Origin: a virus
Length of the DNA: 33,511 nucleotides
Strand: one strand, 5' to 3'
Virus record (IMG/VR): IMGVR_UViG_3300025096_000068
Coordinates: 1 to 33,511 of that record
Shown here: piece after piece, positions 185 to 33,240 of the stretch
Layout of the letters: the number at the start of each line of letters is the position of its first letter
How positions within the stretch are numbered: the stretch's first letter is position 1
The notes under the pieces: generated by a model
The model's database searches: none
The model's input: only the letters and a program-made list of their open reading frames with translations
What the model was told of the DNA's origin: nothing
Program-made: the position numbers and the translations under genes

Positions 185-192
185 TATGTATA
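185..192 (-). promoter_or_regulatory. Late promoter TATACATA
   Basis: One mismatch to the T4 late consensus; 5 nt before ATG 179. Confidence 0.5.
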
Positions 193-193
193 T

Positions 194-1246
194 TTAAAAT
201 CCACCACCACCGCCGGCTGCTGTTGCTTGTTCTCTCAATTCACCCAAAGCTACAGCGCGCTCTCTTTGATATTGACCTCCAGATTGACTTGGAGTTTGTA
301 CCATTTTCATAAAATTAGCTGGTTCTACTGTTAAAGATGTAAAGCTCAAAGTAACTGTATAAGCTTCAGGAATGATAACACCGTCAATTTTTCTTCTTTG
401 GCCTAATAATGAAACATTCATGTTGTCTAGAGAAGCCCACTCTATATATCTTAAACCGGGGACCTCGATGTGGTAGATTGCTGGAAAGGTCATGCCTAAT
501 GGCCCTTCCCTTGTAGGCCTATTTATCTTAGTAAACTCTTTTATAAACTCAGCATTTTTAGCTGGCGCGTCATCGTTTAAAGTATTAGATAAAACAAATT
601 GTAACTCTAGACCTTGGTCAGTGTTAGCATATTGATAAAATTTTGGAGTCTCAATATAGCTACCTGGCGCACCTATAGTTTTAGCACCAGCCATAGTTGT
701 TTTCATGCTCTGGATACCTTTAACAAAACTATCCGATGAAAAGAGATCTGCCGCAGTGCCGCTCTTAAGAGCACCAAATGCTTCACCTCCTAAATTTTTA
801 ACATTTTCTACTAACCCACCACCAATTGAACCAATGCCTTTCGCTAATTCCAGACCACCACCAACAATTTTTTCACCGGCACCAGCTAAGTTTTCAAGAA
901 CTTCAGCACCAATCATTCTTGCACCTCTTTGACTTATTGGGGAAAACGTATCTGCATATTCACTGCTGAATGAACGATATGCATCAGTAAAGAAGGGAAA
1001 GAAAAATGTTCCTAGTGTCTTCGATCCTTTGTACAACCCTTTATAAAATGCAATTCCAGCATCTTGATTTGTTGCTAACATACTGTCTAACTGAACAGTA
1101 TTTAGATACCCGTTGATAAATTGTTGTAGTTGGTTGTTTTCTAACTGATGCGCAACCACAATAGCATTAGGAGCCTCTTCACGTAAAGGCGAATTTCTTG
1201 GAACAGAAGTCCAGTCATAATCTCTAACTATATCGTAGTCGGCCAT
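194..1246 (-). CDS. Baseplate tail-tube cap/initiator, gp48/gp54-like
   Basis: A 350-residue protein. The N-terminal half is predicted helical and Gly/Ala-rich (about 110-190). The C-terminal part (about 200-315) is beta-rich, with the pattern IPEAYTVTLSFTSLTVEP near 293-310, like the tube-fold C-terminus of T4 gp48/gp54 proteins that nucleate the tail tube on the baseplate. The tail is low-complexity (AAGGGGGF). Length fits T4 gp48 (about 364) and gp54 (about 320). The gene directly follows the tape measure gene, as in T4 where 48 and 54 follow 29. The start is fixed by CATAAATA at 1259-1252, 5 nt from the ATG. The stop codon overlaps the next late promoter region. Assignment to the gp48/54 group is moderately safe; which of the two is not decided. 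Confidence 0.6.
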   Translation of the reverse strand: MADYDIVRDYDWTSVPRNSPLREEAPNAIVVAHQLENNQLQQFINGYLNTVQLDSMLATNQDAGIAFYKGLYKGSKTLGTFFFPFFTDAYRSFSSEYADTFSPISQRGARMIGAEVLENLAGAGEKIVGGGLELAKGIGSIGGGLVENVKNLGGEAFGALKSGTAADLFSSDSFVKGIQSMKTTMAGAKTIGAPGSYIETPKFYQYANTDQGLELQFVLSNTLNDDAPAKNAEFIKEFTKINRPTREGPLGMTFPAIYHIEVPGLRYIEWASLDNMNVSLLGQRRKIDGVIIPEAYTVTLSFTSLTVEPANFMKMVQTPSQSGGQYQRERAVALGELREQATAAGGGGGF

Positions 1247-1251
1247 AATAA

Positions 1252-1259
1252 TATTTATG
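1252..1259 (-). promoter_or_regulatory. Late promoter CATAAATA
   Basis: 5 nt before ATG 1246 (tube cap gene); overlaps the stop region of the tape measure gene on its downstream side. Confidence 0.8.
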
Positions 1260-3204
1260 TAAGAGATCCGGGTGTATGCATGCTATAAGGTGAATTATAG
1301 AACTCTACTCTACTATCTGCAAAACTTGGGCCATCCGGGCTCCCTTGTGTACCAGGAATGCTATTATCTTGACGTGGCATTGGTAAAGCTCTAGTTCCCC
1401 CTCCCGCCGGCTTTTTAACTAGCAACTCCGTAAGCTGTACTAATTGATGTAGATACTTATTAGAAATTTCAATCGCGGATACTTGAAGCGCAGCAAGTTT
1501 ACCCGAAAACTTTTCATCTGGAGAAAGAAATGAATCATCTAGCAACTGACTTATAGCACCACCTGCCTTCATTCCTAAAAGCTCGTCCTTTGAACTAAAT
1601 GGCATTACCGTGCCACGTTGCATAATAAAGTCTTGCATTTCAGAAGCCGGCTTTTTCTTTGTTAAAGCACCAAGAGCAAACCCGCCAATATCTTGTACCC
1701 ATTTTGGCTTCAGTACATGATCAGAAATTAATCCCCCAATAAATCTACCTAAAAGATCACCACCTATCGCACCTATTAAAGTACCCACAACCGGTATAGG
1801 TATAAGACTGCCACCTATAGCTCCAATAGCAGCACCCGCCATTGCTGTGACCCCTTTTACTGCTCTTTTACCTGCTTGTTGCCTTAACTCATCTTCAGTA
1901 ATTTCTCCCGCTTCATACCTTTTTTGTAGTTTCTGCAAGTCACCTTTCATAAAAAACCCTTCAATAATAGGGCCTATAACAGGTATTTTAGCAAACTTCT
2001 TTAATATACCAAGTATACCACCTGCTCTTTTTACCATCCCACCGGCGTATTTTGAAATTGCATTTTTAGCCGGTGTTAATGCTTTGTCTTTCATCCAGGC
2101 GGACCCCTTACCTATGTATGATCCAGCTGCTTTTACACCACTCCATGCAGCTGTAGCGCCTCCTTTAATAGCTCCTCCTACAGCTGTAGCGCCTCCTTTA
2201 ATAGCGCCTCCTACAGCTGTAGCACCTCCTTTAATAGCGCCTCCAACCTGACTTGCCTTTTGACCGACAAAACTAGCTGCTCTTTTCCACCATGGCCCTT
2301 TCGCAGCTTGTTGAGGTCTAGGAGCAGGGGCCGGCCTAGGCGGCCTTGTAGCAGCAGTAGCACCTGCAGTTGCGGCGGCTACAGAGCTCTTTGCTAGCGC
2401 TGGAAACAGTTTACCTATACCAGGTATCTTCGAAATTGCATTCTTAAAAAAGGTACCAACAGCTTTTAAAGCTCCAACAACTCTATCCTTTACAGAGTTA
2501 AATAGAGCTTTTGCAGCCTCTTTTCCTTTAGTGAGCATTTCACCAAATTTTTTCCATATAGGCAGCTCTTTAAAACCAGTCCATAATTTACTAAAGAATC
2601 GACCTACACCTCGAATGCCGCTCTTTACCATGTTCCACGCGCCGCGGCCTACTGCCTTTATACCCGCCCATGCCTTTTTGAACATTCCTTTTAACAAATC
2701 CCAACCTTTACCAAGGGCCCATTTAATAAACCCCCATAGCTTACCACCCATCCATTTTATAGATCTCCATAACCAACCACCTATTGCTTTAAATATTCCT
2801 TTCTTTGCTCCACCGAAAAATCCTAAAGTACCTAATAAACTAGATAACCAACCTAAGAGCCCCTTACCGGCCTTTTTGCCCTCGCCCTTGAGGTTTTTAG
2901 CCATATCCGCAGCATCTTGACCATCCCTTTGTGATTTTGATACAACAGTTTCTGGCTTTGTATCTTTGTCGTACTTTGACTTTATCTTAAACCATCTCTC
3001 AACAATAACGTCCGTTGTATTCTTAACACGTGTTTTTTCTGGCGAAGTTAAAGAAGGTTTTACTTTACCTTTAACGCCATATAAAGATGAATTAACAACG
3101 TTCTTTCCAATACTATCGGTAGCTTCGGAGTCAGAAGCTGAGCCCTGCACTGCTTCTAGTGCTTGAGATACGATTGCTAATATTTCACTGGTAGATGTTG
3201 CCAC
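1255..3204 (-). CDS. Tail tape measure protein (gp29-like)
   Basis: A 649-residue protein, close to T4 gp29 (590). It is rich in Gly, Ala, Lys and Trp, with long amphipathic helical stretches (about 100-260). There is a Pro/Ala linker near 285-300, three tandem 11-residue repeats (GGAIKGGATAV type, about 320-352), and a strongly hydrophobic Gly-rich segment (about 450-495, IGGSLIPIPVVGTLIGAIGG) that could cross a membrane during ejection. These are tape-measure hallmarks, and the gene lies between hub genes and the tube cap as expected. As one helix at about 0.15 nm per residue it would give a tail near 100 nm. The start is GTG at 3204, chosen because ATTAAATA (3217-3210) ends 5 nt before it. 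The late promoter overlaps the stop of the upstream gene. Confidence 0.8.
   Translation of the reverse strand: MATSTSEILAIVSQALEAVQGSASDSEATDSIGKNVVNSSLYGVKGKVKPSLTSPEKTRVKNTTDVIVERWFKIKSKYDKDTKPETVVSKSQRDGQDAADMAKNLKGEGKKAGKGLLGWLSSLLGTLGFFGGAKKGIFKAIGGWLWRSIKWMGGKLWGFIKWALGKGWDLLKGMFKKAWAGIKAVGRGAWNMVKSGIRGVGRFFSKLWTGFKELPIWKKFGEMLTKGKEAAKALFNSVKDRVVGALKAVGTFFKNAISKIPGIGKLFPALAKSSVAAATAGATAATRPPRPAPAPRPQQAAKGPWWKRAASFVGQKASQVGGAIKGGATAVGGAIKGGATAVGGAIKGGATAAWSGVKAAGSYIGKGSAWMKDKALTPAKNAISKYAGGMVKRAGGILGILKKFAKIPVIGPIIEGFFMKGDLQKLQKRYEAGEITEDELRQQAGKRAVKGVTAMAGAAIGAIGGSLIPIPVVGTLIGAIGGDLLGRFIGGLISDHVLKPKWVQDIGGFALGALTKKKPASEMQDFIMQRGTVMPFSSKDELLGMKAGGAISQLLDDSFLSPDEKFSGKLAALQVSAIEISNKYLHQLVQLTELLVKKPAGGGTRALPMPRQDNSIPGTQGSPDGPSFADSRVEFYNSPYSMHTPGSLT
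2149..2247 (-). repeat. Three tandem 33-nt repeats in the tape measure gene
   Basis: Units 2149-2181, 2182-2214 and 2215-2247 differ by only a few bases and encode three 11-residue GGAIKGGATAV-type units. Confidence 0.9.
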
Positions 3205-3209
3205 CTAAA

Positions 3210-3217
3210 TATTTAAT
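3210..3217 (-). promoter_or_regulatory. Late promoter ATTAAATA
   Basis: 5 nt before GTG 3204 (tape measure); decides that start. Confidence 0.75.
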
Positions 3218-3941
3218 CATCCGCCGAAGTATCGAAAAAGTCAGCATCGATAGAAACTTCCGTCTCATCTACTGTTAAAACGTTACTATTATACACATTA
3301 ACACTTTCAATAAAGTCTGAAATTTTCGAATATGTACTAAGGGGAAGCCTTTCAACAAGCTTTACGCGTTCATGAATCCGAACATCTTCCATATTAAGTA
3401 CATCGTCATCCACCTGAATACTGTCAATATACTTAATAATCTCGTAAATATATAATTTACCTACGCCTTCTTTTAACAGCTCCTGCTCATTGTCGATCTC
3501 CTGTTCACATTTTTTTAACAAAACATTTTCCTGTCTCAGTGTAGGTATTTTAAGAGTCAGTTTTAAGTTACCCTCTTTAATAGAAGCCTCATCTTTAACG
3601 CTAATAGGTATATTTTTTAAATTATCGAGAACCTTCTGCAACTCAACAGAGCCAGCTTTTGTACCTAGAGCATTTTTTCTCAGCGTTACAACAAACGGTA
3701 ATTTATCATAAACTTTTAAATCAGATAAACCGGAATTGTCGATAATAATCTTATTAAGCGTCTTGTTAAAATCTAATGTACCTCTAAGCCCATCCAAAGC
3801 AGAAGAGATAAGATCTTTTTGCTGTTTTAAATTTAAAGGCTTGGTAGGTACTTTCTTTTTTAAAGAAGGTACAAAAACATCAATCGTCTTCTCGTTGAGT
3901 TTATCTAATTTGGATATAAAAGAAGAAACATTTTTACTCAT
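3213..3941 (-). CDS. Baseplate hub subunit, gp26-like
   Basis: A 242-residue acidic protein. The N-terminus has a KPLNLKQQKDLI segment (about 35-46). The middle is beta/alpha mixed and the C-terminus is acidic, ending near IDADFFDTSADD. This organisation recalls the T4 gp26 baseplate hub family in marine T4-like phages, and the position between the gp51-like gene and the tape measure agrees. No catalytic motif is seen. GCTAAATA (3954-3947), 5 nt from the ATG, supports the start and late expression. Upstream and downstream genes are separated by only 8 nt each. A tail-assembly chaperone is the alternative. Confidence 0.55.
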   Translation of the reverse strand: MSKNVSSFISKLDKLNEKTIDVFVPSLKKKVPTKPLNLKQQKDLISSALDGLRGTLDFNKTLNKIIIDNSGLSDLKVYDKLPFVVTLRKNALGTKAGSVELQKVLDNLKNIPISVKDEASIKEGNLKLTLKIPTLRQENVLLKKCEQEIDNEQELLKEGVGKLYIYEIIKYIDSIQVDDDVLNMEDVRIHERVKLVERLPLSTYSKISDFIESVNVYNSNVLTVDETEVSIDADFFDTSADD

Positions 3942-3946: not shown

Positions 3947-3954
3947 TATTTAGC
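3947..3954 (-). promoter_or_regulatory. Late promoter GCTAAATA
   Basis: 5 nt before ATG 3941 (gp26-like). Confidence 0.7.
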
Positions 3955-4744
3955 TAGCATTTTGTTTTTGCAAGTTTTCGTTCTGCTTTTCAACTTCATC
4001 TGCATACAACTTATAAAAATCTTCAATCTCCAAATACGTACAGTTTATTAAAAAAGATACATCGGGTATTCTTCTGCTTAATACAAAAAGCATTTCTCTA
4101 TAATTAGTAGCAGTTACACAATCAAATATTCTAGCAATAAACGATGGGAGGGTCGGGTCTAACATGTTTAGCTCAATTTCATCCATTTCTAGATTTTCTC
4201 TTTCTTCAAATGCTATCATTTTAAAATGAGATCTATTCTTTTGTACAAAATTCTCTAGATGTTCAAAAATAGCCTCGGGCAATTTACTGATAATTTTACT
4301 ATATTCCTCTTCAGATAACAATGCCATAGCTATCTTCATATCATCAATTTTTACGCTCTTAATAAGTGAAAATATAAAATCAGAACTACCTAGGTTAAAT
4401 CTTGAAGGGTAATCTAAAACACACTGAATATCTCCGACATCTATTACTTCATGGATTTCATCAAATGTACCTATATTTGTTCTTAATAAATTTAAATCTA
4501 CATTAACGTTACCTTTGCTAGACCCAACGGTAATCTCCTCACCAATACATTTCTCTCTTAACAAAAAAAATGTGAACAACTTGTCAATTACATTTAAATC
4601 TTTAGTTAAAATAAATGATTCTAAAAAATTAACTGTACCAGTTACTGAAGTATCACTATATAAGGCTATTTTTCTTAGATCTTTATATAGAATTTCATTT
4701 ACCAAAACCTCCTTTTTGTTAGGAAGCGTAAAAGTTATTTCCAT
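3950..4744 (-). CDS. Baseplate hub assembly protein, gp51-like
   Basis: A 264-residue, mostly helical, acidic protein. The most conserved-looking part is residues about 190-255 (LDPTLPSFIARIFDCV, YREMLFVLSRR, INCTYLEIEDFYKLYADE), which matches my memory of T4 gp51-type hub assembly factors. The end is a Gln/Asn/Lys-rich helix (VEKQNENLQKQNAS) likely to be coiled coil. The place between tail tube and tape measure is where contractile phages encode tape-measure or hub chaperones. TATAATTA (4757-4750), one mismatch from the late consensus, ends 5 nt from the ATG. The family name is from recalled pattern only. Confidence 0.5.
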   Translation of the reverse strand: MEITFTLPNKKEVLVNEILYKDLRKIALYSDTSVTGTVNFLESFILTKDLNVIDKLFTFFLLREKCIGEEITVGSSKGNVNVDLNLLRTNIGTFDEIHEVIDVGDIQCVLDYPSRFNLGSSDFIFSLIKSVKIDDMKIAMALLSEEEYSKIISKLPEAIFEHLENFVQKNRSHFKMIAFEERENLEMDEIELNMLDPTLPSFIARIFDCVTATNYREMLFVLSRRIPDVSFLINCTYLEIEDFYKLYADEVEKQNENLQKQNAS

Positions 4745-4749: not shown

Positions 4750-4757
4750 TAATTATA
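4750..4757 (-). promoter_or_regulatory. Late promoter TATAATTA
   Basis: One mismatch to TATAAATA; 5 nt before ATG 4744 (gp51-like). Confidence 0.55.
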
Positions 4758-4770: not shown

Positions 4771-5379
4771 TTATAAAGGCGCGTAATTTTTAAATGCAAA
4801 AGTAACACTCTTTTCTAAAAATGACTCATTATCGTAATCAATTGTATACCCTTCAACATTAGTAGGGAATACATCTGTAAAGTTATATCCTTTACGTACT
4901 TCACCTTTATGGTTATATTGCCTTAAAATTACATTAGGACAAAGCAAACCTCTATTAATTAACCCGTCAATACCAACCGCTATCATCCACGGTCTAAAGA
5001 AATTATGTTCTAAGTCATCATCTGTGTCAAAAATATTTACAGCTAACGTTCTAGTTAAAAATCCTTGCCGGCGATTAACACCATAAGCAGGTAAAAAGCC
5101 TCCTAGGTTTACATCTGCACCTGCTTCTAAAAATTCTGTTGTCTCGCCCGGAACTGCGACTTCGCGCGCGACTAACGTATTACCATTTGATACAAACTCT
5201 TCAGGTGTGTTTTTTACTCTCCAGCTTTCACCAGCCTTTTCTAATGCTTGGTCGACTTGACCTCTTACAGAACCAGCATTAGAAAATTCTATCTTCCAAA
5301 GAGTAGGGAGAGAGAGATAGTATCTTGAGGGACCTCCAACGCTATAGTTGTTAAGAAAATCGTATACTTCACCAGCCAT
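4771..5379 (-). CDS. Tail-tube-fold structural protein (gp19-like paralogue 2)
   Basis: A 202-residue protein. It carries tail-tube-like features: N-terminal aromatic segment, VAREVAVPGETTEFLEAG (about 70-87, comparable to the PG loop region of gp19), a central RPWMIAVGIDG stretch, and a C-terminal beta strand pair (SFLEKSVTFAFKNYAPL). In gp19 proteins the equivalent C-terminal strand completes the tube barrel. It is immediately downstream of the true tube gene. It may cap or connect the tube, as T4 gp3 or neck proteins do. ATTAAATA (5393-5386) lies 6 nt from the ATG. Confidence 0.6.
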   Translation of the reverse strand: MAGEVYDFLNNYSVGGPSRYYLSLPTLWKIEFSNAGSVRGQVDQALEKAGESWRVKNTPEEFVSNGNTLVAREVAVPGETTEFLEAGADVNLGGFLPAYGVNRRQGFLTRTLAVNIFDTDDDLEHNFFRPWMIAVGIDGLINRGLLCPNVILRQYNHKGEVRKGYNFTDVFPTNVEGYTIDYDNESFLEKSVTFAFKNYAPL

Positions 5380-5385
5380 TAATAT

Positions 5386-5393
5386 TATTTAAT
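5386..5393 (-). promoter_or_regulatory. Late promoter ATTAAATA
   Basis: 6 nt before ATG 5379 (tube-like paralogue). Confidence 0.7.
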
Positions 5394-5415
5394 CAGCTAT
5401 CCGATTAAACATATA

Positions 5416-5952
5416 CTAACTAAAGTCTCTATAGAAGTGGTAGGCGAATGTAGTAGAGAAGTTTAACACTTCACCAGTACCTTCAGCAATAGAGTACTCA
5501 ATGTCACCAATTTCTCTAATTGATGCACCAACTAGTTCGATGTTTCTAACATCGTTTAAGTTTTTATCTATTTGTACTAAGTTAATTACTGATTCTTCTC
5601 CGGGCATGCCATATGCACCGGTGGATGTTTCATTATTAAACACTGCTCTTGAAGCAGCTTCCATTTTTGTTCGAAGCTCACAATTTTCATCATGATAGAA
5701 TTCAATTGAATAACCTTCAGCATTAGCATATGTCGCTCTACCTGGCACCTGAAATACTTGGCCAAAGTAATTAACGTTAACGTTGTCAATGTTTCTGCCA
5801 GGTAAAGATGCTGTCCTAGCATAAACCAGGTCATCCTCTCCATCAAACCTAATACCTCCTATTAAGTCTATTTGCCTTACTCGAAATAGAAAATCTCGAG
5901 AAAATTGCTTCGATGCAGCTCTGGTAAAGAAGTTCTGAATAGTTGTTGCCAT
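5416..5952 (-). CDS. gp19: Tail tube protein (gp19)
   Basis: A 178-residue protein, close to T4 gp19 (163). Features typical of the family: N-terminal FFTRAASKQFSRDFLFRVRQI, ARTASLPGRNIDNVNVNYFG (about 45-65, the tube PG motif), FYHDENCELRTKMEAASR (about 85-103), and a C-terminal strand ending in FSTTFAYHFYRDFS. It polymerises as stacked hexamer rings forming the inner tube through which DNA passes. The gene lies directly downstream of the sheath gene, as in T4. ATTAAATA (5965-5958) ends 5 nt from the ATG, indicating late transcription starting at the start codon. Confidence 0.9.
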   Translation of the reverse strand: MATTIQNFFTRAASKQFSRDFLFRVRQIDLIGGIRFDGEDDLVYARTASLPGRNIDNVNVNYFGQVFQVPGRATYANAEGYSIEFYHDENCELRTKMEAASRAVFNNETSTGAYGMPGEESVINLVQIDKNLNDVRNIELVGASIREIGDIEYSIAEGTGEVLNFSTTFAYHFYRDFS

Positions 5953-5957
5953 AATAT

Positions 5958-5965
5958 TATTTAAT
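5958..5965 (-). promoter_or_regulatory. Late promoter ATTAAATA
   Basis: 5 nt before ATG 5952 (tail tube). Confidence 0.75.
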
Positions 5966-5976
5966 TGTTTGATTCA

Positions 5977-8790: not shown

Positions 8791-8795
8791 AAAAT

Positions 8796-8803
8796 TATTT
8801 ATC
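8796..8803 (-). promoter_or_regulatory. Late promoter GATAAATA
   Basis: 5 nt before ATG 8790 (sheath). Confidence 0.8.
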
Positions 8804-8822
8804 CATTTTCATACAAATATAT

Positions 8823-9416: not shown

Positions 9417-9424
9417 TATTTATT
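9417..9424 (-). promoter_or_regulatory. Late promoter AATAAATA
   Basis: 6 nt before ATG 9410 (tube-like protein). Confidence 0.75.
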
Positions 9425-11173: not shown

Positions 11174-11181
11174 TATTTAAT
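11174..11181 (-). promoter_or_regulatory. Late promoter ATTAAATA (terminase)
   Basis: 5 nt before GTG 11168; back to back with the plus-strand late promoter at 11188. Confidence 0.75.
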
Positions 11182-11187: not shown

Positions 11188-11195
11188 CATAAATA
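11188..11195 (+). promoter_or_regulatory. Late promoter CATAAATA
   Basis: 5 nt before ATG 11201; lies inside the frame that would start at 11180 and so decides the start of the acidic protein gene. Confidence 0.8.
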
Positions 11196-11200: not shown

Positions 11201-12208
11201 ATGTCAAAAAAGAAAGACTTGATGTCACTAGGTAAAGCATACGGAGATGTGCTCAATAAAGTTGTAATTAATGAAGAAGTCCCGGCCGGCGCTGTTGGTG
11301 AAGCTCCTCTAGAAACAGGAGGACCACAAGAAGATGGCGGCTGGAGACCACCGCTTGTCGACATTACTAAGCTATCTGATAAGGATAAAAAAGATAACAT
11401 TTATAATATTGGTGGGTTGACCTACGGTGATGGCAACGATCCAGGTATTAATAACCAACAGCCTGACCCAACTGGTCCTGAATTTGATCAAGTGCCATAT
11501 TCTGGTAATGTGGGACCGCCAGAAGAAGATGAAGAAGATCATGATGAGGATGAGGATAATGAGGATGAGGATAATGAAAAAAAAGCAAAAAAAGGTAAAA
11601 AGGGTGAAGAAGCTGAAGAAGATGAAGAAGATGAAGAAATTTTAGCAGAACACGAGAAAATTGCACGCGAGGGCCTAAATAATTTTATGAGCAAGACTTC
11701 TGTATTTGATAAACTTTATAATAAGGTAATGGTCAGTGAGAGCTTTGGTGAAAATGCTGAAGATGTTACTGAGCTTGAAGCCCTCGGAATTGAAACCGAC
11801 GTTGAGGAGGTTGTAGATGAGGTTCCAGAGGAAATCGCAGTAACCATTCCCGGTGAACTAGCACAAACACTCGCTGATATCTTACAAACAGCTTTAGCAC
11901 AACAAGAGACTGAGGTTGACATCGATGTTGATGTTGCAGAAGTCACTGATACACAGTTTGAAGAGGATGAAGAGGCCGCTATGAAAGATGGTGGTGGATA
12001 CGGCATTGATGCTGGATCGACTCTTAAGGGAGAAATTAACTACGGTAAAAATAACAAGGTTAGTAACTTAAAGACCCAGGGTGCTGCTGCACAGAAAGAT
12101 GGTGGTGGATACGGCGTTGATGCTGGATCGACTCTTTCGAAAGAAATTAACTACGGTAAGCAGAACAAAGTTGGTAACCTTAAAGTCGGTAAAAACGCTT
12201 TCGAATAA
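11201..12208 (+). CDS. Highly acidic repeat protein, possible prohead core/scaffold
   Basis: A 335-residue acidic protein. It contains a long Glu/Asp run with a basic KKAKKGKKG island (about 105-145). The segment FMSKTSVFDKLYNKVM (about 161-176) resembles short head-targeting motifs in phage core proteins. Two 30-residue repeats beginning KDGGGYGIDAGSTL close the C-terminus. I choose ATG 11201 (MSKKKDLMSLG), not the in-frame ATG at 11180, because CATAAATA (11188-11195) ends exactly 5 nt before 11201. The gene diverges from terminase and ends before a strong terminator. The acidic, low-complexity nature and location suggest a scaffold or core role like T4 gp67/gp68, but this is inference. Confidence 0.55.
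   Translation: MSKKKDLMSLGKAYGDVLNKVVINEEVPAGAVGEAPLETGGPQEDGGWRPPLVDITKLSDKDKKDNIYNIGGLTYGDGNDPGINNQQPDPTGPEFDQVPYSGNVGPPEEDEEDHDEDEDNEDEDNEKKAKKGKKGEEAEEDEEDEEILAEHEKIAREGLNNFMSKTSVFDKLYNKVMVSESFGENAEDVTELEALGIETDVEEVVDEVPEEIAVTIPGELAQTLADILQTALAQQETEVDIDVDVAEVTDTQFEEDEEAAMKDGGGYGIDAGSTLKGEINYGKNNKVSNLKTQGAAAQKDGGGYGVDAGSTLSKEINYGKQNKVGNLKVGKNAFE
11984..12184 (+). repeat. Two 90-nt direct repeats in the acidic protein gene
   Basis: 11984-12073 and 12095-12184 encode related KDGGGYG(I/V)DAGSTL units 37 codons apart. Confidence 0.85.
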
Positions 12209-12268: not shown

Positions 12269-12276
12269 AATAAATA
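12269..12276 (+). promoter_or_regulatory. Late promoter AATAAATA
   Basis: 5 nt before GTG 12282; decides the start of the nucleotidyltransferase-fold gene. Confidence 0.8.
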
Positions 12277-17456: not shown

Positions 17457-17464
17457 TATTTATG
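17457..17464 (-). promoter_or_regulatory. Late promoter CATAAATA
   Basis: 5 nt before ATG 17451 (tail fibre). Confidence 0.8.
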
Positions 17465-18025: not shown

Positions 18026-18033
18026 TATTTATG
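18026..18033 (-). promoter_or_regulatory. Late promoter CATAAATA
   Basis: 7 nt before ATG 18018 (holin-like); a short leader of about 2 nt. Confidence 0.75.
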
Positions 18034-18093: not shown

Positions 18094-18107
18094 TATAATA
18101 ATAAATA
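18094..18107 (+). promoter_or_regulatory. TATAAT -10 fused to ATAAATA
   Basis: TATAAT at 18094-18099 lies 8 nt before GTG 18108; ATAAATA at 18101-18107 abuts the GTG. A weak TTGATT at 18073 is 15 nt upstream of the -10. Confidence 0.5.
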
Positions 18108-18791
18108 GTGAAGATCAAATTCGACGAACCCACGCATACTTACACCCATATTGATACTGATAAGCCTTTTATATCTGTAACAACTTTACTAGGTAAATTC
18201 AAACAGCCCTTCGATAGACACGGCCACTCTAAAAGAGTAGCAGATAGAGAAGGAGTATCACAGGAGTTGGTATTAGAAATGTGGGAGGCAGAAAAAAATA
18301 GGGCATGCTCACGAGGTACTAACATTCATGCAGTGCTCGAGGATTATATTAATTTTGGTGAGGTAGAAGGTGAGTGGGGATGGTTATGCAAGTCATATGA
18401 TAAAGCTGTAGAACGATCGGTTGACTCATTTAAAACCGTTCTAAGTGAAAATCTACTATACAATGAAGAGCATGCCATTGCCGGCACTGCAGATTTAATT
18501 TATGAACATAAAAACGAATTTACAATCGGCGACTTTAAGACAAATAAGAGATTTAGATTTAGCTCACCCTACTCAGAACGTTTAAAAGACCCTGTAAGCC
18601 ATCTTCATAACTGTGAATTTAATTTGTATGGTTTGCAGCTGTCTCTGTATGCTTATCTCTATGAAAAAATGTCTGGTAAGAGGTGTAGGAAGTGTGTAAT
18701 CTTTTATCTAAACGATGATAGATTTATTTCCTATCACATAAATTATATGAAGGCAGAAGTGGAAGCTATTTTAGCTAGTATAAATAAATAG
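18108..18791 (+). CDS. PD-(D/E)XK superfamily exonuclease (RecB/Cas4-like fold)
   Basis: A 227-residue protein. The motifs run in canonical order: His74 in SRGTNIHAVLEDY, Asp129 in AIAGTADLIYE, Asp142 and Lys144 in IGDFKTNK, and GLQLSLYAYLY (Q177...Y181, the QxxxY motif). These are the catalytic residues of RecB/AddB-type nucleases. A role in phage recombination or host DNA degradation is likely. The start is GTG at 18108. Upstream lies TATAATAATAAATA (18094-18107), a -10 box fused to a late-like motif. The gene diverges from the lysis pair and probably opens the rightward metabolic unit. Three cysteines near 197-202 are not arranged like the Cas4 iron-sulphur cluster. Confidence 0.8.
   Translation: MKIKFDEPTHTYTHIDTDKPFISVTTLLGKFKQPFDRHGHSKRVADREGVSQELVLEMWEAEKNRACSRGTNIHAVLEDYINFGEVEGEWGWLCKSYDKAVERSVDSFKTVLSENLLYNEEHAIAGTADLIYEHKNEFTIGDFKTNKRFRFSSPYSERLKDPVSHLHNCEFNLYGLQLSLYAYLYEKMSGKRCRKCVIFYLNDDRFISYHINYMKAEVEAILASINK
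18783..18790 (+). promoter_or_regulatory. Late promoter AATAAATA
   Basis: 5 nt before ATG 18796; overlaps the nuclease stop codon. Confidence 0.65.
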
Positions 18792-18795: not shown

Positions 18796-18999
18796 ATGAA
18801 GCGAACTGCTGTTCTTAAAAAGTTTGATAAAGAGGTAGAAAGTTTATGGGACGTTCTGTATAACATTAAAGATTTGCTAGAAAATACGGACGACTATGAA
18901 TTAGCTGAATTAGCTGGAAAGTTCTTAGATCAGATTTCGGAAGGGTTTGAAAGCGGAGACGTTACTATTGAGGAGATTAGAGATCAAATATCAGGTTGA
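18796..18999 (+). CDS. Small acidic helical protein of unknown function
   Basis: A 67-residue, strongly acidic, all-helical protein (KKFDKEVESLWDVLYNIKDLL then two more helices). I do not recognise a family. It begins 4 nt after the nuclease gene. Immediately upstream, AATAAATA (18783-18790) overlaps the nuclease stop codon and ends 5 nt before the ATG, so it appears to have its own late promoter. The adjacency would fit an accessory or inhibitor of the nuclease, but that is a guess. Confidence 0.6.
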   Translation: MKRTAVLKKFDKEVESLWDVLYNIKDLLENTDDYELAELAGKFLDQISEGFESGDVTIEEIRDQISG

Positions 19000-22850: not shown

Positions 22851-22858
22851 TATTTATG
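22851..22858 (-). promoter_or_regulatory. Late promoter CATAAATA
   Basis: 5 nt before GTG 22845; shortens the apparent 239-codon frame to 162 residues. Confidence 0.8.
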
Positions 22859-22871
22859 TTGCAATGCATAA

Positions 22872-22887
22872 GGAACCAGCTTATAAT
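22872..22887 (+). promoter_or_regulatory. GGAACC-N4-TATAAT promoter
   Basis: GGAACC, AGCT, TATAAT; 9 nt before ATG 22897. Confidence 0.65.
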
Positions 22888-24625: not shown

Positions 24626-24804
24626 ACGGTAAAATTGGAGAGTTCACGTTTGAGTTAGATACCACGTTAAGCAGAATTGATGTATATCAACGCGGAGAAG
24701 GTTCAGAACCATCGTGGTATATTTCCGTAGGTCGCGACATTGATGAGAAAGATTTTCATTATGAGATAATGGATTGGTATTCTAAGAAAACTGAGGAGTC
24801 ATAA
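24622..24804 (+). CDS. Hypothetical protein
   Basis: A 60-residue acidic protein with alternating strands (GEFTFELDTTLSRIDVYQRG) and an aromatic segment (PSWYISVG). It is translationally coupled to the gene before it through ATGA and is followed by the GGAACC-type promoter of the next gene. Not recognised. Confidence 0.5.
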   Translation: MNGKIGEFTFELDTTLSRIDVYQRGEGSEPSWYISVGRDIDEKDFHYEIMDWYSKKTEES

Positions 24805-24820
24805 GGAACCTCAGTATAAT
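24805..24820 (+). promoter_or_regulatory. GGAACC-N4-TATAAT promoter
   Basis: GGAACC, TCAG, TATAAT; 6 nt before ATG 24827, predicted leaderless. Confidence 0.7.
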
Positions 24821-24826: not shown

Positions 24827-25015
24827 ATGACAATAAAGCTTACCGAATCTGATAAAGCGTACGCGCGCCAGCACGGTTTAACTTTCGGAGAAATGAGAGG
24901 ATTTGTAGAGGATCAAATCAAAGAGGAGGAGATGATAAAGACCTACTACGAGCAGCAGCAGAAGGAACATGAAGATTTTAAGAATTCCCCTCAAGCTATT
25001 TATGCAGCATGGTAA
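24827..25015 (+). CDS. Small helical protein of unknown function
   Basis: A 62-residue protein, helical and Glu/Gln-rich in its second half (QIKEEEMIKTYYEQQQKEHE). TATAAT at 24815-24820, preceded at 4 nt by GGAACC (24805-24810), ends 6 nt before the ATG, so the mRNA should begin at the start codon. A short basic ORF overlaps its end. Function unknown. Confidence 0.6.
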   Translation: MTIKLTESDKAYARQHGLTFGEMRGFVEDQIKEEEMIKTYYEQQQKEHEDFKNSPQAIYAAW

Positions 25016-25632: not shown

Positions 25633-25640
25633 TATTTATA
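25633..25640 (-). promoter_or_regulatory. Late promoter TATAAATA (perfect consensus)
   Basis: 5 nt before ATG 25627 of the interrupted acidic gene. Confidence 0.8.
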
Positions 25641-26115: not shown

Positions 26116-26385
26116 ATGAACCACCCTGATGTATTAAGAGTATATTCCTTAAACAATTTTTTGTTTATGTTTAAACAAGACTGTTTAGAGATAAGTTCTA
26201 AGGATATTAAATGGACTATTACCGGTAATGATAAAATGATACAATGGAAACTGGATAGAGCTAACGTGTCTATGGATCAAGTAGGTCCCTTTATTTTACC
26301 TGGAAGTTGCCCGTTAGCTGATTTGGAGGGTACTCTTTTCTATAACCAAATTAAAGAGTGGATACAGCTAAGCAATAACTTATAA
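26116..26385 (+). CDS. Hypothetical protein
   Basis: An 89-residue protein of mixed strands and helices (CLEISSKDIKWTITGNDKMI..., then ILPGSCPLADLEGTLF). No family is recognised. CATAAATA (26100-26107), overlapping the SET-gene stop, lies 8 nt before the ATG and may be a late promoter with an unusual spacing. The next gene's -10 box overlaps its stop. Confidence 0.55.
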   Translation: MNHPDVLRVYSLNNFLFMFKQDCLEISSKDIKWTITGNDKMIQWKLDRANVSMDQVGPFILPGSCPLADLEGTLFYNQIKEWIQLSNNL

Positions 26386-28398: not shown

Positions 28399-28406
28399 AA
28401 TAAATA
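28399..28406 (+). promoter_or_regulatory. Late promoter AATAAATA
   Basis: 5 nt before GTG 28412 (secreted two-repeat protein). Confidence 0.75.
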
Positions 28407-28411: not shown

Positions 28412-29473
28412 GTGAAGGCCCTCATACTAACCATAGGGCTCTTAACATTAGCATTACAATCTTTTTTAGGAGCTCAATCATCTACTTCTGCACCTATAGG
28501 ATTCCACTCCGAGCTGGTTAAGGCGGACTCTTTCTCGCTTATAGGTGTTAATGTAACAAATAACGCTAATGAGCCTCATCATCGAAGCATTGAGGAAATG
28601 TTTGGTCCGAATAATGAAACCGGCCTTAATGCAGGTAAGCCAAAGGAAGCTGATATCGTTTGGCTTCCAGACTTTGACCGTGGTTATGTTAAAATATATT
28701 ACAATGACAAACTTCAAACATTCCCCCCTATAACTGTAGGGTGGAGAGGTGTAGGGTTTGGTAATACAGATATGTCTCAGTTTGAGCCTCCTAGCAATGG
28801 AGGATTTTTTATAGAATCTAAGAAAGATTATGACTGGTACATAGCATTTGGTGGCTATATAAAACAAACAGAAATGTTTTATGATGTTGAACCTGGAATG
28901 AATATTCTAAATAAAGGCTTTCCTACTAATATTCAATTAAATCAATCTGGTATTGAGCAGTCAGAAGGGTTTGAACACGGAGATCAAAACACCGGTGATA
29001 TAATTTGGTTGTACAGAACAAATGGTATGTATGATAGATATTACTATAGTGATGGTCAATCATTTCCGCCGCTTTCACCCGGATGGAAGCTGATCGGCGG
29101 CGGTGATGAAGATGTAGGCCATCATATTTTATCTTCATCGTTTATTGTTGAAACTAAAGGAGGCGGCGGAGAGATTATGTTACACCCACCTCCAGGGTTT
29201 ATAAGGTCTAAGGGAGCTACTGATCCGCTAGCGCCTCCTCGTGCTAATATATACTGGTCAATATTAGAAGATGTCAATGGCATACCCAATTTTGTAATGT
29301 GGTGGGATTCTCTCGGCGGTAATATTATATATACAACAGAAGTTTATAACGGGTCGAGTTGGATGTTTATTTCAGAGCAAAGAAATTTACCAGGTCAAGT
29401 TTTATCTAATTATGCAACATTGGGGATGGGTTGGGGCGTTGCACGCGTAGTCGCTGAATATAGTTCCTTTTAA
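28412..29473 (+). CDS. Secreted two-repeat protein, paralogue of the gene at 33241
   Basis: A 353-residue protein. Residues 1-21 are a signal peptide (LTLALQSFLGA|Q). The rest contains two related blocks with DIVWLP..., YYNDKLQTFPPITVGWRGVG (about 95-114) and DIIWLYRTNG..., YYSDGQSFPPLSPGWKLIGG (about 207-227), each followed by a FFIE/FIVE strand. There are many Tyr, Trp, Gly and Asn. The blocks loosely recall a Verrucomicrobia repeat family (TIGR02597-like); this comes from memory only. AATAAATA (28399-28406) ends 5 nt before the GTG start, so the gene is late. A secreted late protein may remodel the envelope, exclude other phages, or be exported after lysis. Confidence 0.7.
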   Translation: MKALILTIGLLTLALQSFLGAQSSTSAPIGFHSELVKADSFSLIGVNVTNNANEPHHRSIEEMFGPNNETGLNAGKPKEADIVWLPDFDRGYVKIYYNDKLQTFPPITVGWRGVGFGNTDMSQFEPPSNGGFFIESKKDYDWYIAFGGYIKQTEMFYDVEPGMNILNKGFPTNIQLNQSGIEQSEGFEHGDQNTGDIIWLYRTNGMYDRYYYSDGQSFPPLSPGWKLIGGGDEDVGHHILSSSFIVETKGGGGEIMLHPPPGFIRSKGATDPLAPPRANIYWSILEDVNGIPNFVMWWDSLGGNIIYTTEVYNGSSWMFISEQRNLPGQVLSNYATLGMGWGVARVVAEYSSF

Positions 29474-29485: not shown

Positions 29486-29562
29486 CCGCAAAATAATACA
29501 AATCATCAGTTGAACCTATACTGATATGACATTATATTAAGAGGTAGTTAATAACAATAAAA

Positions 29563-29578
29563 GGAACTCTAATATAAT
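29563..29578 (+). promoter_or_regulatory. GGAACT-N4-TATAAT promoter of the sigma factor
   Basis: GGAACT, CTAA, TATAAT; 6 nt before ATG 29585, predicted leaderless. No TTGACA-like -35. Confidence 0.7.
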
Positions 29579-29584: not shown

Positions 29585-30730
29585 ATGCCAGTAACTAAAG
29601 AACGCGCAAATGATCCAGTCCGCGCATATATGAAACAAATGGGTCAGACAGAGCTTCTTACAAAAGAGCAAGAAGTTGAAATTTTTAAATGTATTGAAAA
29701 ATCTCAGAGGAAGGCGTTTAATCTTCTCTGTAAGGATAACGATACGCTTACTCGCTTTAGCGAATTAGGTCGCGATCTTATTAACGGAAGAGTAAGATTT
29801 GAAGACAATGTTGATTGTGAATCTAAGGAAAGATTTATGAAAGGTCTTCATAAGTTAGTAGAAGCTTTAGAGGAGAATCATACAGACATAAAGAGGAAAA
29901 CACTCTACAAGCGGTTTTGTTTAAAGCAGTCAGTTATTGATAGCTGGTGTGATAAGATTGCTGAACGCGGTGACGACGACATGACTCAAGCTCTTAAAAA
30001 GCTTAACCATTCTAAAGGAGAAATGGTTAAAGCTAACTTGAGGTTAGTGGTTGCAAACGCTAAAAAATATACCAAACGCGGCGTTGCATTGCTTGATCTT
30101 ATTCAAGAAGGTAACTTAGGCTTAATAAAAGCCGTTGAAAGGTTTGAGTACAAACGAGGTTATAAGTTTTCGACTTATGCTACTTGGTGGATCCGCCAAT
30201 CGATTACTAAATGTGTAGGAGAGACTGGAAGAACTATCAGGATCCCGATGCATATGATCGACACGATTAATAAAGTCTTTCGTATACAGCGATCACTCGT
30301 TCAGGCCGGTGGGTGTGAACCATCACCAGAAGAGATTGCGCATGAGATCGATCTTCCCGTTAGTCGTGTTAAGACCATTCTTAAGGTAGCAATGCATCCG
30401 ATATCGCTCCAAACGCCTGTAGGAGATGGTACGACCACGATTGCTGATTTTATTGAAGATGAAAGAGAGGCTGGGAGTGTGAATACTGAAGCTCTTATAG
30501 GGATGAAGGATAAGATTGCTGAGGCGATATCCACACTTAATGAGCGTGAGCTTGGAGTAATGGAGATGCGATTTGGAATGATTGATGGAGTTAGACGTAC
30601 TCTTGAAGAAGTGGGAGATAGGTTCCAAGTAACTCGTGAGAGAATTCGACAGATTGAAGCAAAAGCTATTCGTAAGCTTGCAAATCCCCTACGACTTCAA
30701 AAGCTTGAGATGTTTAACCGCATCGCTTAA
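29585..30730 (+). CDS. Sigma-70 family RNA polymerase sigma factor (primary type)
   Basis: A 381-residue protein with all core regions. Region 1.2 is DPVRAYMKQMGQTELLTKEQ (10-29). Region 2 is 146-212, including LLDLIQEGNLGLIKAVERFE and YKFSTYATWWIRQSIT (the -10 recognition helix). Region 3 runs from TIRIPMHMIDTINKV to about 290. Region 4 is about 306-370, with the -35 helix TLEEVGDRFQVTRERIRQIE. Only the non-conserved region between 1.2 and 2.1 is short. It is much closer to host RpoD than to the divergent T4 late sigma gp55. Its own promoter is GGAACT-CTAA-TATAAT (29563-29578), 6 nt before the ATG. It probably redirects polymerase to phage or stress promoters. Confidence 0.95.
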   Translation: MPVTKERANDPVRAYMKQMGQTELLTKEQEVEIFKCIEKSQRKAFNLLCKDNDTLTRFSELGRDLINGRVRFEDNVDCESKERFMKGLHKLVEALEENHTDIKRKTLYKRFCLKQSVIDSWCDKIAERGDDDMTQALKKLNHSKGEMVKANLRLVVANAKKYTKRGVALLDLIQEGNLGLIKAVERFEYKRGYKFSTYATWWIRQSITKCVGETGRTIRIPMHMIDTINKVFRIQRSLVQAGGCEPSPEEIAHEIDLPVSRVKTILKVAMHPISLQTPVGDGTTTIADFIEDEREAGSVNTEALIGMKDKIAEAISTLNERELGVMEMRFGMIDGVRRTLEEVGDRFQVTRERIRQIEAKAIRKLANPLRLQKLEMFNRIA

Positions 30731-30751
30731 CGAACTAGACTATAATAAATA
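30731..30751 (+). promoter_or_regulatory. CGAACT-N4-TATAAT promoter overlapping a late motif
   Basis: CGAACT, AGAC, TATAAT (30741-30746), with AATAAATA at 30744-30751, 6 nt before ATG 30758. Confidence 0.65.
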
Positions 30752-30757: not shown

Positions 30758-31003
30758 ATGAAAATAATAAAGCCCTTTTTATTCGCAATTTTAGCAGCAG
30801 TTTCACTCTCTTCATGCACACTTGATAGTGCTAGTTTTGGAGTAAGTGCTGTCAGTTATCCTTCATATATTGAAGCGAGACCGGTACGTCGCCATCAACC
30901 AGCCATCTATCATACAACTCAGTATTATCGATATGATGTGCGCCCGGACTGGATGAGGTATGGTGGCAATTGGGTCCCAGCACGTCGTTACCATCGCCGT
31001 TAA
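30758..31003 (+). CDS. Small lipoprotein, His/Tyr/Arg-rich
   Basis: An 81-residue protein with a clear lipoprotein signal: MKIIKPFLFAILAAVSLSSC, lipobox LSSC with Cys20. The mature part is short, basic and rich in Tyr, Arg and His (RPVRRHQPAIYHTTQYYRYD, ending RRYHRR). It is probably anchored in the outer or inner membrane. The promoter CGAACT-AGAC-TATAAT (30731-30746) also contains AATAAATA (30744-30751, 6 nt from ATG), so it may be read both early and late. A second putative lipoprotein follows 4 nt later. A superinfection-exclusion or spanin role is possible but not shown. Confidence 0.7.
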   Translation: MKIIKPFLFAILAAVSLSSCTLDSASFGVSAVSYPSYIEARPVRRHQPAIYHTTQYYRYDVRPDWMRYGGNWVPARRYHRR

Positions 31004-31192: not shown

Positions 31193-31200
31193 ATTAAATA
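31193..31200 (+). promoter_or_regulatory. Late promoter ATTAAATA
   Basis: 6 nt before ATG 31207 (nuclease). Confidence 0.65.
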
Positions 31201-31206: not shown

Positions 31207-31569
31207 ATGTACGAATACAATGCTGAATTAAGAAGAGTAGTAGATGGTGATACAGTTGATGTTACCATTGATTGTGGGTTTAATATACACGTCAAAGAGC
31301 GTGTAAGATTGAAAGGCATCGACACACCGGAGAGTCGCACAAGAGATTTAGAGGAGAAGAAGAGAGGTTTAGCAGCTAAAGATAGACTGATCGACATTAT
31401 AGCATCATTTGGTAACAAATTTGTTATAAAGACATCTATTGATAAGAAGGGGAAGTTTGGAAGATTGCTTGGTGAGCTAATTAGTAAAGACGGTGAGCAA
31501 AACGCTAACCAAATGCTTTTAGAGGAAGGCCACGCCGTTGAATACTTTGGCGGGAAGAAGACTAAATAA
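31207..31569 (+). CDS. Staphylococcal-type (thermo)nuclease
   Basis: A 120-residue SNase-fold protein without a signal peptide. VVDGDTVDVTID (11-22) opens the OB fold. RVRLKGIDTPES (32-43) supplies Arg34, Asp39 and Glu42, and KFGRLLGEL (83-91) supplies Arg86, matching the catalytic Arg/Asp/Glu/Arg set. It is compact but complete enough for activity. It would hydrolyse DNA or RNA in a calcium-dependent way. ATTAAATA (31193-31200) lies 6 nt before the ATG, indicating late expression. Confidence 0.9.
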   Translation: MYEYNAELRRVVDGDTVDVTIDCGFNIHVKERVRLKGIDTPESRTRDLEEKKRGLAAKDRLIDIIASFGNKFVIKTSIDKKGKFGRLLGELISKDGEQNANQMLLEEGHAVEYFGGKKTK

Positions 31570-31577
31570 ATGTAGAT

Positions 31578-32106: not shown

Positions 32107-32128
32107 GTAGCTTTTCTTAGATAGTTGT

Positions 32129-32134
32129 TATAAT
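32129..32134 (+). promoter_or_regulatory. Possible -10 TATAAT
   Basis: 10 nt before ATG 32145 (beta-helix protein). Confidence 0.4.
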
Positions 32135-32144
32135 TACTATAACG

Positions 32145-33149
32145 ATGAAAAAGAAAGCGGAGATTATCCCCACGAGGGACGAGGCAACGGCGGAGCTTAT
32201 AAAAGCAAAAGATATCTTAGACAGATATGGGATTGAAAACACAATTGATCCTGAAGCACCAATCGATTGGGTGGACTATATCGACAAAGCTCAAGATCGA
32301 ATTGGTAAGTCTGGAAGCGGGCAGCGATCCGGATCCATTGTTTTAACTGATAACTATCCTATCAGTAGGACGTTATATTTAGATGCACATGTTACACTAG
32401 AGGGATCCGTTCGCGCTAAATGGCATGTAAATAGTAGTCATGGATTCTATATTGATGGAGATGATTTCACCGGTGAGTTTATGCTGGAGTGGCGCCAGCC
32501 TGTCAGCCGCGGCAAGGCCGATAATTATTCAAACTTTGGTGCAGGTATTCATCAGGTCCATGTCGAATCGAAGCCCGGGACTAGTGGAGTATACTTTCGA
32601 GGAGCTCAGCAGGCTTGTAGAGTCGATAATTTAATCGTTAGAGGCTTTGGAGAGAACGCTGTCGGCATTCAACTAGCAGGCGACACATATACAGTCCGCG
32701 ACACCTTCAGCGACGCAGCTAAGGGGGGAGAGAAGTCTGTAACAAGAGAAGGTTCTACTGGCTTTAACTTGAAAGATAGGATTTATAGTCTTGCTTTACA
32801 TAATATTACTACTCATAACTGTGCTGTTGGAGTGTGTTGGAATGATGCGCATCAGCTATTAATCACTAACTACGAGTCAGAGTTAACTGAGACGCCCTTA
32901 AAGACAACTTATCAGAGTATGGGTGTAACGATTCAAAACGCTAGCTTCCGACATACAGATTGGATTTTAGACCTCCGAAAAGCTCGATTTACAGATAACT
33001 TTCAGATTAAACTCGATGGCATGATGGCCGATCACAAGGAAGGAGTTATCAATTATCCCATTGATAAAGTTTGGCGATCAGGTAAGCTGTTTGATGTAAC
33101 CATCACCGGAGAGGGAAGAGGATTAAAGGTAGTCGATCATAGGGGATAG
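32145..33149 (+). CDS. Right-handed beta-helix (pectate-lyase-like) protein
   Basis: A 334-residue protein without a signal peptide. After a helical N-terminus (1-50), repeated short strands with Asn and Gly turns run to the end: GSIVLTDNYPISRTLYLDAH, SGVYFRGAQQACRVDNLIVR, SLALHNITTHNCAVGVCWND. This is the rung pattern of parallel beta-helix proteins such as phage tailspikes. It could be a receptor-binding or depolymerase subunit, but no catalytic residues can be assigned. TATAAT (32129-32134) lies 10 nt upstream. The TAG stop shares its G with the tRNA-Thr. Base composition is visibly more GC-rich than in neighbouring genes. Confidence 0.6.
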   Translation: MKKKAEIIPTRDEATAELIKAKDILDRYGIENTIDPEAPIDWVDYIDKAQDRIGKSGSGQRSGSIVLTDNYPISRTLYLDAHVTLEGSVRAKWHVNSSHGFYIDGDDFTGEFMLEWRQPVSRGKADNYSNFGAGIHQVHVESKPGTSGVYFRGAQQACRVDNLIVRGFGENAVGIQLAGDTYTVRDTFSDAAKGGEKSVTREGSTGFNLKDRIYSLALHNITTHNCAVGVCWNDAHQLLITNYESELTETPLKTTYQSMGVTIQNASFRHTDWILDLRKARFTDNFQIKLDGMMADHKEGVINYPIDKVWRSGKLFDVTITGEGRGLKVVDHRG

Positions 33150-33225
33150 CCAACTTAGCTCAGCTGGCTAGAGCGGCTCACTTGTAATGAGCAGGTCGTC
33201 GGTTCGAACCCGACAGTTGGCTCCA
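33149..33225 (+). tRNA. tRNA-Thr (anticodon UGU)
   Basis: A complete cloverleaf: acceptor GCCAACT/AGTTGGC, anticodon stem GCTCA/TGAGC with loop CTTGTAA (anticodon TGT), T stem GTCGG/CCGAC, discriminator T and encoded CCA. It reads ACA. The first G is the last base of the TAG stop of the beta-helix gene. Confidence 0.95.
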
Positions 33226-33227
33226 AC

Positions 33228-33235
33228 ACTAAATA
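33228..33235 (+). promoter_or_regulatory. Late promoter ACTAAATA
   Basis: 5 nt before ATG 33241, 2 nt after the tRNA-Thr CCA. Confidence 0.7.
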
Positions 33236-33240
33236 AAGAT

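Follow-up and report, generated by a model that had tools for sequence, protein, structure and literature searches.

The 33,511-base IMG/VR record IMGVR_UViG_3300025096_000068, analysed here over its entire length and referred to as the window, is by its sequence a record of an uncultured T4-like myovirus that belongs to a lineage of marine phages related to T4. Its T4-type virion genes comprise a terminase, a sheath, three tube-like, two baseplate-hub and one head-closure gene, and beside these it encodes four tRNAs, a sigma factor of the primary type and proteins for metabolism and nuclease functions. Many of these genes are preceded at a nearly fixed distance by TAAATA, here called the late box, and this arrangement is the subject of the present analysis. 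Spacing is given as the number of nucleotides (nt) between the last base of TAAATA and the ATG or GTG start codon (together RTG).

Homologues of T4-type genes were searched by phmmer with the proteins of T4, S-SM2, S-PM2 and HTVC008M as queries, and the window, a fragment, holds gp17, gp18 and gp19-like genes. Its terminase matched 2,600 records of named phages, every one below 60% identity (at most 36.7% among the matches listed), and megablast of the first 25,000 window bases against named phages gave no match. A relative is encoded in 231 IMG/VR stretches, 80 of which were kept as L-numbered loci, and five long relatives were taken at full length (G001, 196,877; G002, 170,908; G003, 154,604; G004, 91,501; and G005, 77,320 bases). 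The T4-type core genes gp17, gp18, gp20, gp21, gp23, gp43 and gp55 are all present (7/7) in each of G001, G002 and G003.

Distance between the late box and the start codon

The first-pass annotation had placed 13 motif ends exactly 5 nt before a start codon, and all 13 are indeed followed after 5 nt by ATG or GTG. The frames opened there reach at least 90 codons in 12 of the 13 cases; that at 33235 runs off the record, and that at 25633 has only 30 codons. In total, the window contains 15 TAAATA-N5-RTG sites, one of which (11676-11681) lies inside the coding sequence 11201-12208, whereas 100 dinucleotide shuffles average 1.47 such sites and never exceed 5. The earlier estimate of about 20 genes, mostly at 5 nt and a few at 6-7 nt, agrees with the window counts: five 6-nt sites open frames of at least 30 codons, four of them listed as genes in Table 1 and the fifth a 64-codon frame within 32145-33149 that is not counted as a gene, and further boxes lie at 7 nt (17701-18018), 8 nt (26116-26385) and 4 nt (19032-20075). 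The signal is the fixed distance and not the frequency of the motif, the strict form ATAAATA not being over-represented in the window (21 against 15.6 expected; 12/100 shuffles reach 21). The base before TAAATA can also be T, C or G, besides A.

The scan of distances to start codons that had been proposed as a check was extended to the relatives, where a peak at 5 nt with a shoulder at 6 is present. In particular, TAAATA occurs at exactly 5 nt at 47, 45 and 37 sites in G001, G002 and G003, as compared with 0-6 at offsets above 11. Once repeated contexts were removed, the 5-nt spacing was represented 258 times and the 6-nt spacing 73 times in the pooled loci L002-L065, where offsets 10-44 averaged 7.0 each, and L066 with L068-L081 gave 64 and 23 against 1.2 per offset. 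The 5-nt peak is absent from the T4, cyanophage, rhizobial and Pseudoalteromonas comparators, where the counts remain at background in 40-50 kb each (T4 2, S-SM2 1, S-PM2 1, P-SSM2 0, AG-345-F15 0, Melnitz 1, XG4 0, phiM9 0, phiM12 1). Counted by gene with a crude caller (frames of at least 70 codons), a late box at 5-6 nt precedes 48/229 genes in G001, 58/184 in G002, 42/156 in G003 and 14/37 in the window, with 0.4 to 1.4 in shifted-offset controls and none among the called genes of T4 (0/48), S-SM2 (0/33), S-PM2 (0/61) and XG4 (0/34).

The distance is also kept at individual genes. Upstream of the terminase, a box is found in 65/65 loci (those of the 80 whose alignment begins at residue 1 and that have 45 or more upstream bases; they comprise 29 distinct sequences), at 5 nt in 51 and at 6 nt in 14, and an opposite-facing, divergent box is present in the printed sequences, the letters between the two boxes being variable. 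In the window, the two start codons of this divergent gp17 region are 32 bp apart, so that a longer leader would be impossible for either mRNA unless it began beyond the other box. The sheath gene gp18 has 5 nt in 4/4 orthologues examined. Among the orthologues of G001-G003, the spacer letters of gp18, gp32, UvsX, gp55 and gp61 change and the spacing is constant; for gp13 and gp21 both are kept. A same-strand upstream gene ends near 112 of the 164 late sites of these three genomes, most commonly with gaps of 8 nt (20 sites), 4 nt (10) and 12 nt (9). Gaps of 8 and 4 nt are expected where TAAATA(A) contains the stop codon of the upstream gene, an overlap that is present in the window at 1252, 3210 and 3947.

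Further promoter classes and their partition by gene class

The start-proximal geometry is not limited to late genes, as it is shared in the relatives by a sigma70-type class and by a class linked to AAGGAAC. In G001, G003 and G004, TATAAT has a peak at 6-7 nt from the start, which is less pronounced in G002 and G005, and the pooled loci L002-L065 give 32 and 14 sites at these spacings against 4.1 per offset. The logo of the TATAAT-N7 set (35 sites) has TTG at the -35 place, and at many of the 44 sites of the TATAAT-N6 set AAGGAAC precedes TATAAT by five bases. Start-proximal TATAAT has TTGA 15-19 nt upstream in 33/80 cases, as compared with 64/1523 elsewhere, AGGAAC-N5 in 15/80 compared with 22/1523, and neither in 33/80. 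Late boxes near starts have no -35 signal in the logo and are never accompanied by AGGAAC (0/212), although TTGA is mildly enriched there (see below). The combination AAGGAAC-N5-TATAAT occurs 16, 5, 3, 5 and 5 times in G001 to G005 and three times in the window (0.02 in window shuffles), and in none of the seven comparators tested. A Shine-Dalgarno (SD) function of AAGGAAC was considered and is unlikely, since the end of the motif is mostly 17 nt away from the start and TATAAT intervenes at fixed spacing. In four orthologues of the exonuclease, TATAAT lies at 7, 8, 8 and 8 nt. Across IMG/VR, AAGGAAC-N5-TATAAT-N6-ATG was found in at least 120 stretches, of which 80 loci were listed, and the N6 peak of these loci is biased because they were chosen by that very pattern. 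Six other IMG/VR loci (L264, L285, L303, L305, L308 and L316), likewise chosen by the pattern, contain 9 to 26 AGGAAC-N5-TANNNT each; this is a lead only, suggesting that the architecture may be shared by a larger group of phages.

The two boxes are largely partitioned by gene class. When the T4-type homologues of G001-G003 and the window are taken as rows, a TATAAATA-like late box lies upstream of 26/40 virion homologues, TATAAT of 0/40 and neither of 14/40, while replication and regulation homologues have a late box in 0/42, TATAAT in 19/42 and neither in 23/42 (Fisher 4e-13, the rows not being independent because orthologues repeat). By family, ten late families stand against six TATAAT families. 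For one late row, gp23 of G001, the box lies 159 nt inside the stop-to-stop frame, possibly by chance. The earlier claim that nearly every virion gene has its own promoter was therefore too strong: it holds for the 26 of 40 virion homologues with an exact box, whereas gp6, gp15 and gp4 have no late box, gp20 and gp23 have one in 1/3 genomes each, and the head-closure gene of the window (13318-14139) has none.

As for the factors that could read these promoters, a homologue of the late sigma factor gp55 was found by phmmer in G001-G003 (E 1e-17 to 6e-19) and none in the window record itself. Weak hits to sigma region 2 occur in G001-G004, in G001-G003 at the places of gp55, and the gp55 gene itself carries TTGA/TATAAT-N7 in 3/3 genomes. 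The clamp loader gp44 was also detected by phmmer. G001 encodes gp55 plus a separate RpoD-like sigma, and RpoD-like sigma factors of the primary type were also observed in the window (29585-30730) and in L308 (9983-10885); such a phage sigma is perhaps a stand-in for that of the host. A scan of genome contigs with an alignment of the phage sigma factors returned 24 distant relatives from unrelated phyla (best 54% over residues 142-377), and no host was inferred. A peptide motif typical of Verrucomicrobia occurs in a single locus, L308; the window-clade loci searched lack it, and it was not used.

Probable leaderless initiation and competing explanations

The late boxes of T4 are described as covering -13 to -6 of the transcription start (PMC1524935), and by this rule TAAATA followed by five bases places +1 on the start codon. 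Collectively, these data make it very probable that the promoters of this T4-like lineage are fused to start codons and give leaderless mRNAs. The core of the first-pass proposal, a T4-type late box with the start codon as +1, leaderless late mRNAs and no SD, is well supported by sequence, conservation and controls. In the corresponding mechanism, a gp55-type polymerase would begin late mRNAs on the first base of AUG or GUG, with TAAATA at -11 to -6; other genes would use a sigma70-type (TTGA ... TATAAT) or an AAGGAAC-N5-TATAAT promoter, whose TATAAT, 6-7 nt before the start codon, would put +1 on or beside it. The first gene of each transcript would be translated leaderless and part of the others would be coupled to the preceding stop codon, so that no SD sequence would be needed. 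What the sequences show directly is the geometry, its conservation, the partition by gene class with its exceptions, the missing SD peak and the gp55 of the relatives; from these we infer where transcription starts, how the mRNAs are translated, the host's tolerance of, or first-proposed reliance on, leaderless translation, and which classes to call early, middle and late.

The behaviour of SD sequences and of gene coupling bears directly on this scheme. The earlier statement that SD sequences are lacking proved true as a property of the group: SD-like tetramers are without clear excess 4-9 nt before starts in G001-G005, and likewise in L002-L065 (62.8 per offset against a background of 57.5), whereas the controls T4 (10.8 against 3.7) and HTVC008M (31.0 against 8.1) do have an excess. 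Among the comparators, those that infect E. coli, SAR11, OM43 and Pseudoalteromonas have a clear excess and the cyanophages a weak one or none, a pattern that may help to assign the host. Phage translation factors were considered as a cause, and neither an IF3 C-domain nor ribosomal protein S21 was found in the seven records. An exact box precedes 215 of the 569 called genes of G001-G003, and the preceding stop codon is overlapped or touched by 160 of the 354 genes without a box as compared with 11 of the 215 with one.

The broader possibility that all promoter classes are leaderless is more tentative, and we rate it at slightly less than even. In this extended form, transcription starts would be welded to start codons throughout, promoters would sit within stop codons, divergent gaps of ~32 bp and coding sequence, initiation would combine leaderless starts with stop-start coupling, and the RpoD-like sigma may serve the AAGGAAC-N5-TATAAT class. 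Its probability is reduced by the exceptions to the partition and by the coupling seen in T4 at about the same rate.

Several observations weigh against the fusion of promoters to start codons or against its generality. As many as 194 of the 569 called genes have neither box nor coupling and are left unexplained, and coupling also occurs in 17/48 genes of T4 and 20/61 of S-PM2, rates similar enough to regard it as ordinary. The gene classes are crossed by the baseplate-hub gene 3950-4744, which has TATAAT-N7, by the endonuclease gene 31207-31569, which has a late box at 6 nt, and by the GMP reductase gene 19032-20075, whose TAAATA lies at 4 nt and whose TATAAT lies at 9 nt. TTGA is mildly enriched at start-proximal late boxes (15/212 against 27/1094, p 0.002), and TATAAT-N6-ATG is not significant within the window (3 against 1.0; 9/100 shuffles), so that the TATAAT class rests on the relatives. 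Of the partners of gp55, gp33 was not found by phmmer at 1e-4, and gp45 gave no phmmer hit at this threshold and one sub-threshold PF02916 hit with an internal stop across the seven records. Finally, the sigma gene of G001 lacks an AAGGAAC promoter at its candidate start, unlike that of the window.

Among the alternatives, the one that deserves most weight, although it is unlikely, is that the promoters are real and initiation slips or uses adjacent bases, giving very short leaders of 1-6 nt. The 6-nt class (73 sites as compared with 258) and the TATAAT spacings of 7-8 nt would indeed leave 1-2 nt; however, the mode of the late box is exactly 5 nt, which is +1 by the T4 rule, and mRNAs with such leaders would functionally still be near leaderless. 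It is improbable that the box instead acts in leadered mRNAs as an A/U-rich signal that enhances translation or is of the S1 type, with the distance set by ribosome placement. The missing SD peak of the clade would fit such a signal, and the AT-rich bias near -10 in genes without SD is said to reflect S1 sites possibly as well as promoters (PMC5397173), but the two boxes are largely split by gene class, and TTGA or AAGGAAC stands at fixed spacing upstream of TATAAT in that class. The late box has the sequence that gp55 is known to recognise, gp55 is encoded by the relatives, and overlap with the preceding stop is far commoner where the box is missing. Moreover, in S-PM2 and S-SM2, whose SD excess is weak or lacking, only 0-1 late boxes lie at 5 nt.

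A further alternative, that the RTG after the box is a chance or decoy codon and that the true starts lie downstream with ribosome sites, can be nearly dismissed. AT-rich genomes do yield chance boxes, and 107/726 RTG at offsets 10-40 open at least 60 codons; at 5 nt, however, 123/143 do so, and the candidate starts of the clade have no SD peak. In addition, each of the 13 sites of HTVC008M at 5-6 nt that open at least 40 codons coincides with an annotated coding-sequence start. Leaderless initiation from promoters fused to start codons is the preferred explanation.

Known systems, a probable nested gene and further features

Late mRNAs carry leaders in T4, whose late transcription is a textbook system. 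The lineage resembles this gp55/gp33/gp45 system in the TAAATA core at the -10 place, in the mostly virion genes served on both strands and in the gp55 of G001-G003. In T4, S-SM2 and S-PM2, however, candidate starts lie mostly 11-44 nt after ATAAATA (21, 12 and 10 starts; 29, 15 and 20 boxes), only 0-2 boxes lie at 5 nt, and T4 has an SD peak that this lineage lacks. In sequence and in context, this is the T4 late promoter, but it is arranged otherwise than in T4 and the cyanophages examined.

A partial parallel is HTVC008M (Pelagibacter, Kyanoviridae), in which 12 of 185 TAAATA lie exactly 5 nt before candidate starts against a background of 1.2 per offset, the genes concerned including DNA-end-protector, head-closure, tube-cap, baseplate-wedge, tail-completion and tape-measure genes. 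It differs in its strong SD peak, in having no TATAAT peak, in the low share of called genes with the box (only 11/176) and in that some of these are non-virion genes (oxygenase, curli-type, cyclase). HTVC008M, which appears as L090, L132 and L133, is a cultured SAR11 myophage with an otherwise SD-led genome.

Leaderless phage mRNA is already known from the sources consulted. Most middle and late mRNAs of the Thermus phage phiYS40 are described as leaderless, with a thermophilic host in which the balance of IF2 and IF3 is said to change (PMC3594737); by contrast, in the present lineage a T4-type late box and further promoter classes share one geometry. A paper on AR9 mentions in passing that phage transcripts are often leaderless (PMC5312081), which counts against novelty. 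For the TA-led leaderless genes of Actinobacteria and Deinococcus-Thermus, a -10-like box ~10-12 bp before the start is given as the mark of leaderless genes (PMC3160421). This lineage has the same marks, a -10-like box ~10-12 nt upstream of the start and no SD, but the TA-led genes are cellular and use a host sigma, whereas the present genes belong to a phage and are served by a gp55-type box and two other classes. In titles and abstract openings, with few subscription papers and no bioRxiv preprints covered, no paper on leaderless promoters in T4-like phages was found, and the fusion with the T4 late system was not met in that search. If correct, the present reading would mean that a tailed phage can join its promoters to its translation starts throughout the genome, an arrangement that probably suits a host poor in SD-led translation. 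It would provide gene finders with a precise start rule for many contigs, and leaderless phage translation would become testable, the partial case of HTVC008M having a cultured host.

The same rule predicts a gene nested within 11201-12208, a probable leaderless gene with a predicted C-terminal product of 157-214 amino acids (aa). TAAATA-N5-ATG is retained at this site in 47/47 distinct homologues, whose C-terminal products are 45-86% identical to that of the window. The codons of the LNNF peptide encoded across the box are CTA in 46/47 (TTA once), AAT, AAT and TTT, and several flanking codons vary; however, the codons for E at -11, K at -10 and K at +8 vary no more than these, so that this synonymous-site argument is supportive and not decisive. 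A stronger point is that in L077, L079 and L080 the peptide is LNIF, yet box and distance are unchanged. An assignment of 11201-12208 as gp16 was rejected, its C-terminal product being without significant similarity to gp16 of P-SSM2 and HTVC008M.

Table 1. Promoter-like boxes and associated genes in the window (spacing in nt to the start codon)
Feature	Position	Strand	Spacing	Gene and remarks
Late box TAAATA	1252..1257	-	5	ATG of 194-1246; TAA is stop of 1255-3204
Late box	3210..3215	-	5	GTG of 1255-3204 (weak tape-measure-like match); TAA is stop of 3213-3941
Late box	3947..3952	-	5	ATG of 3213-3941 (baseplate hub, phrog_150); TAA is stop of 3950-4744
TATAAT, no late box (exception)	4752..4757	-	7	ATG of 3950-4744 (baseplate hub, phrog_150)
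Late box	5386..5391	-	6	ATG of 4771-5379 (tail tube-like)
Late box	5958..5963	-	5	ATG of 5416-5952 (tail tube, gp19-like)
Late box	8796..8801	-	5	ATG of 5977-8790 (tail sheath gp18)
Late box	9417..9422	-	6	ATG of 8823-9410 (tail tube-like; weak gp3 match)
Late box	11174..11179	-	5	GTG of 9423-11168 (large terminase gp17)
Divergent late box	11190..11195	+	5	ATG 11201 of 11201-12208
Nested late box	11676..11681	+	5	Within 11201-12208; in-frame ATG 11687, predicted 173-codon C-terminal product
Late box	12271..12276	+	5	GTG 12282 of 12282-13316
Late box	17457..17462	-	5	ATG of 15073-17451 (792 aa)
Late box	18026..18031	-	7	ATG of 17701-18018 (weak holin match)
TATAAT with upstream TTGATT	18094..18099	+	8	GTG of 18108-18791 (exonuclease)
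Late box	18785..18790	+	5	ATG of 18796-18999
Late box	22851..22856	-	5	GTG 22845 of 22357-22845
AAGGAAC-N5-TATAAT, third class	22870-22887			
AAGGAAC-N5-TATAAT, third class	24803..24820	+	6	ATG of 24827-25015
Late box	25633..25638	-	5	ATG of 30-codon frame (gene doubtful)
Late box	28401..28406	+	5	GTG of 28412-29473 (353 aa)
AAGGAAC-N5-TATAAT, third class	29561..29578	+	6	ATG of RpoD-like sigma gene
Primary-type sigma factor gene	29585..30730	+		Regions 1.2, 2, 3, 4
Late box	30746..30751	+	6	ATG of 30758-31003
Late box	31195..31200	+	6	ATG of 31207-31569 (endonuclease; exception to virion/non-virion partition)
Late box	33230..33235	+	5	ATG 33241, gene runs off record

Some further observations concern the record and its genes. 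The contigs L002 and L003 (77 and 53 kb) encode a terminase 100% identical to that of the window (9423-11168), and the same or a very near population may therefore exist in longer form. The gene 19032-20075 exceeds the NCBIfam cut-off for GMP reductase PRK05096, a gene that is, to our knowledge, unusual for a T4-like phage. In the region 4771-9410, a sheath of 937 aa is flanked by three tail-tube-like genes, and since its matches to named phages lie mainly in the C-terminal third, it seems to carry a long insert.

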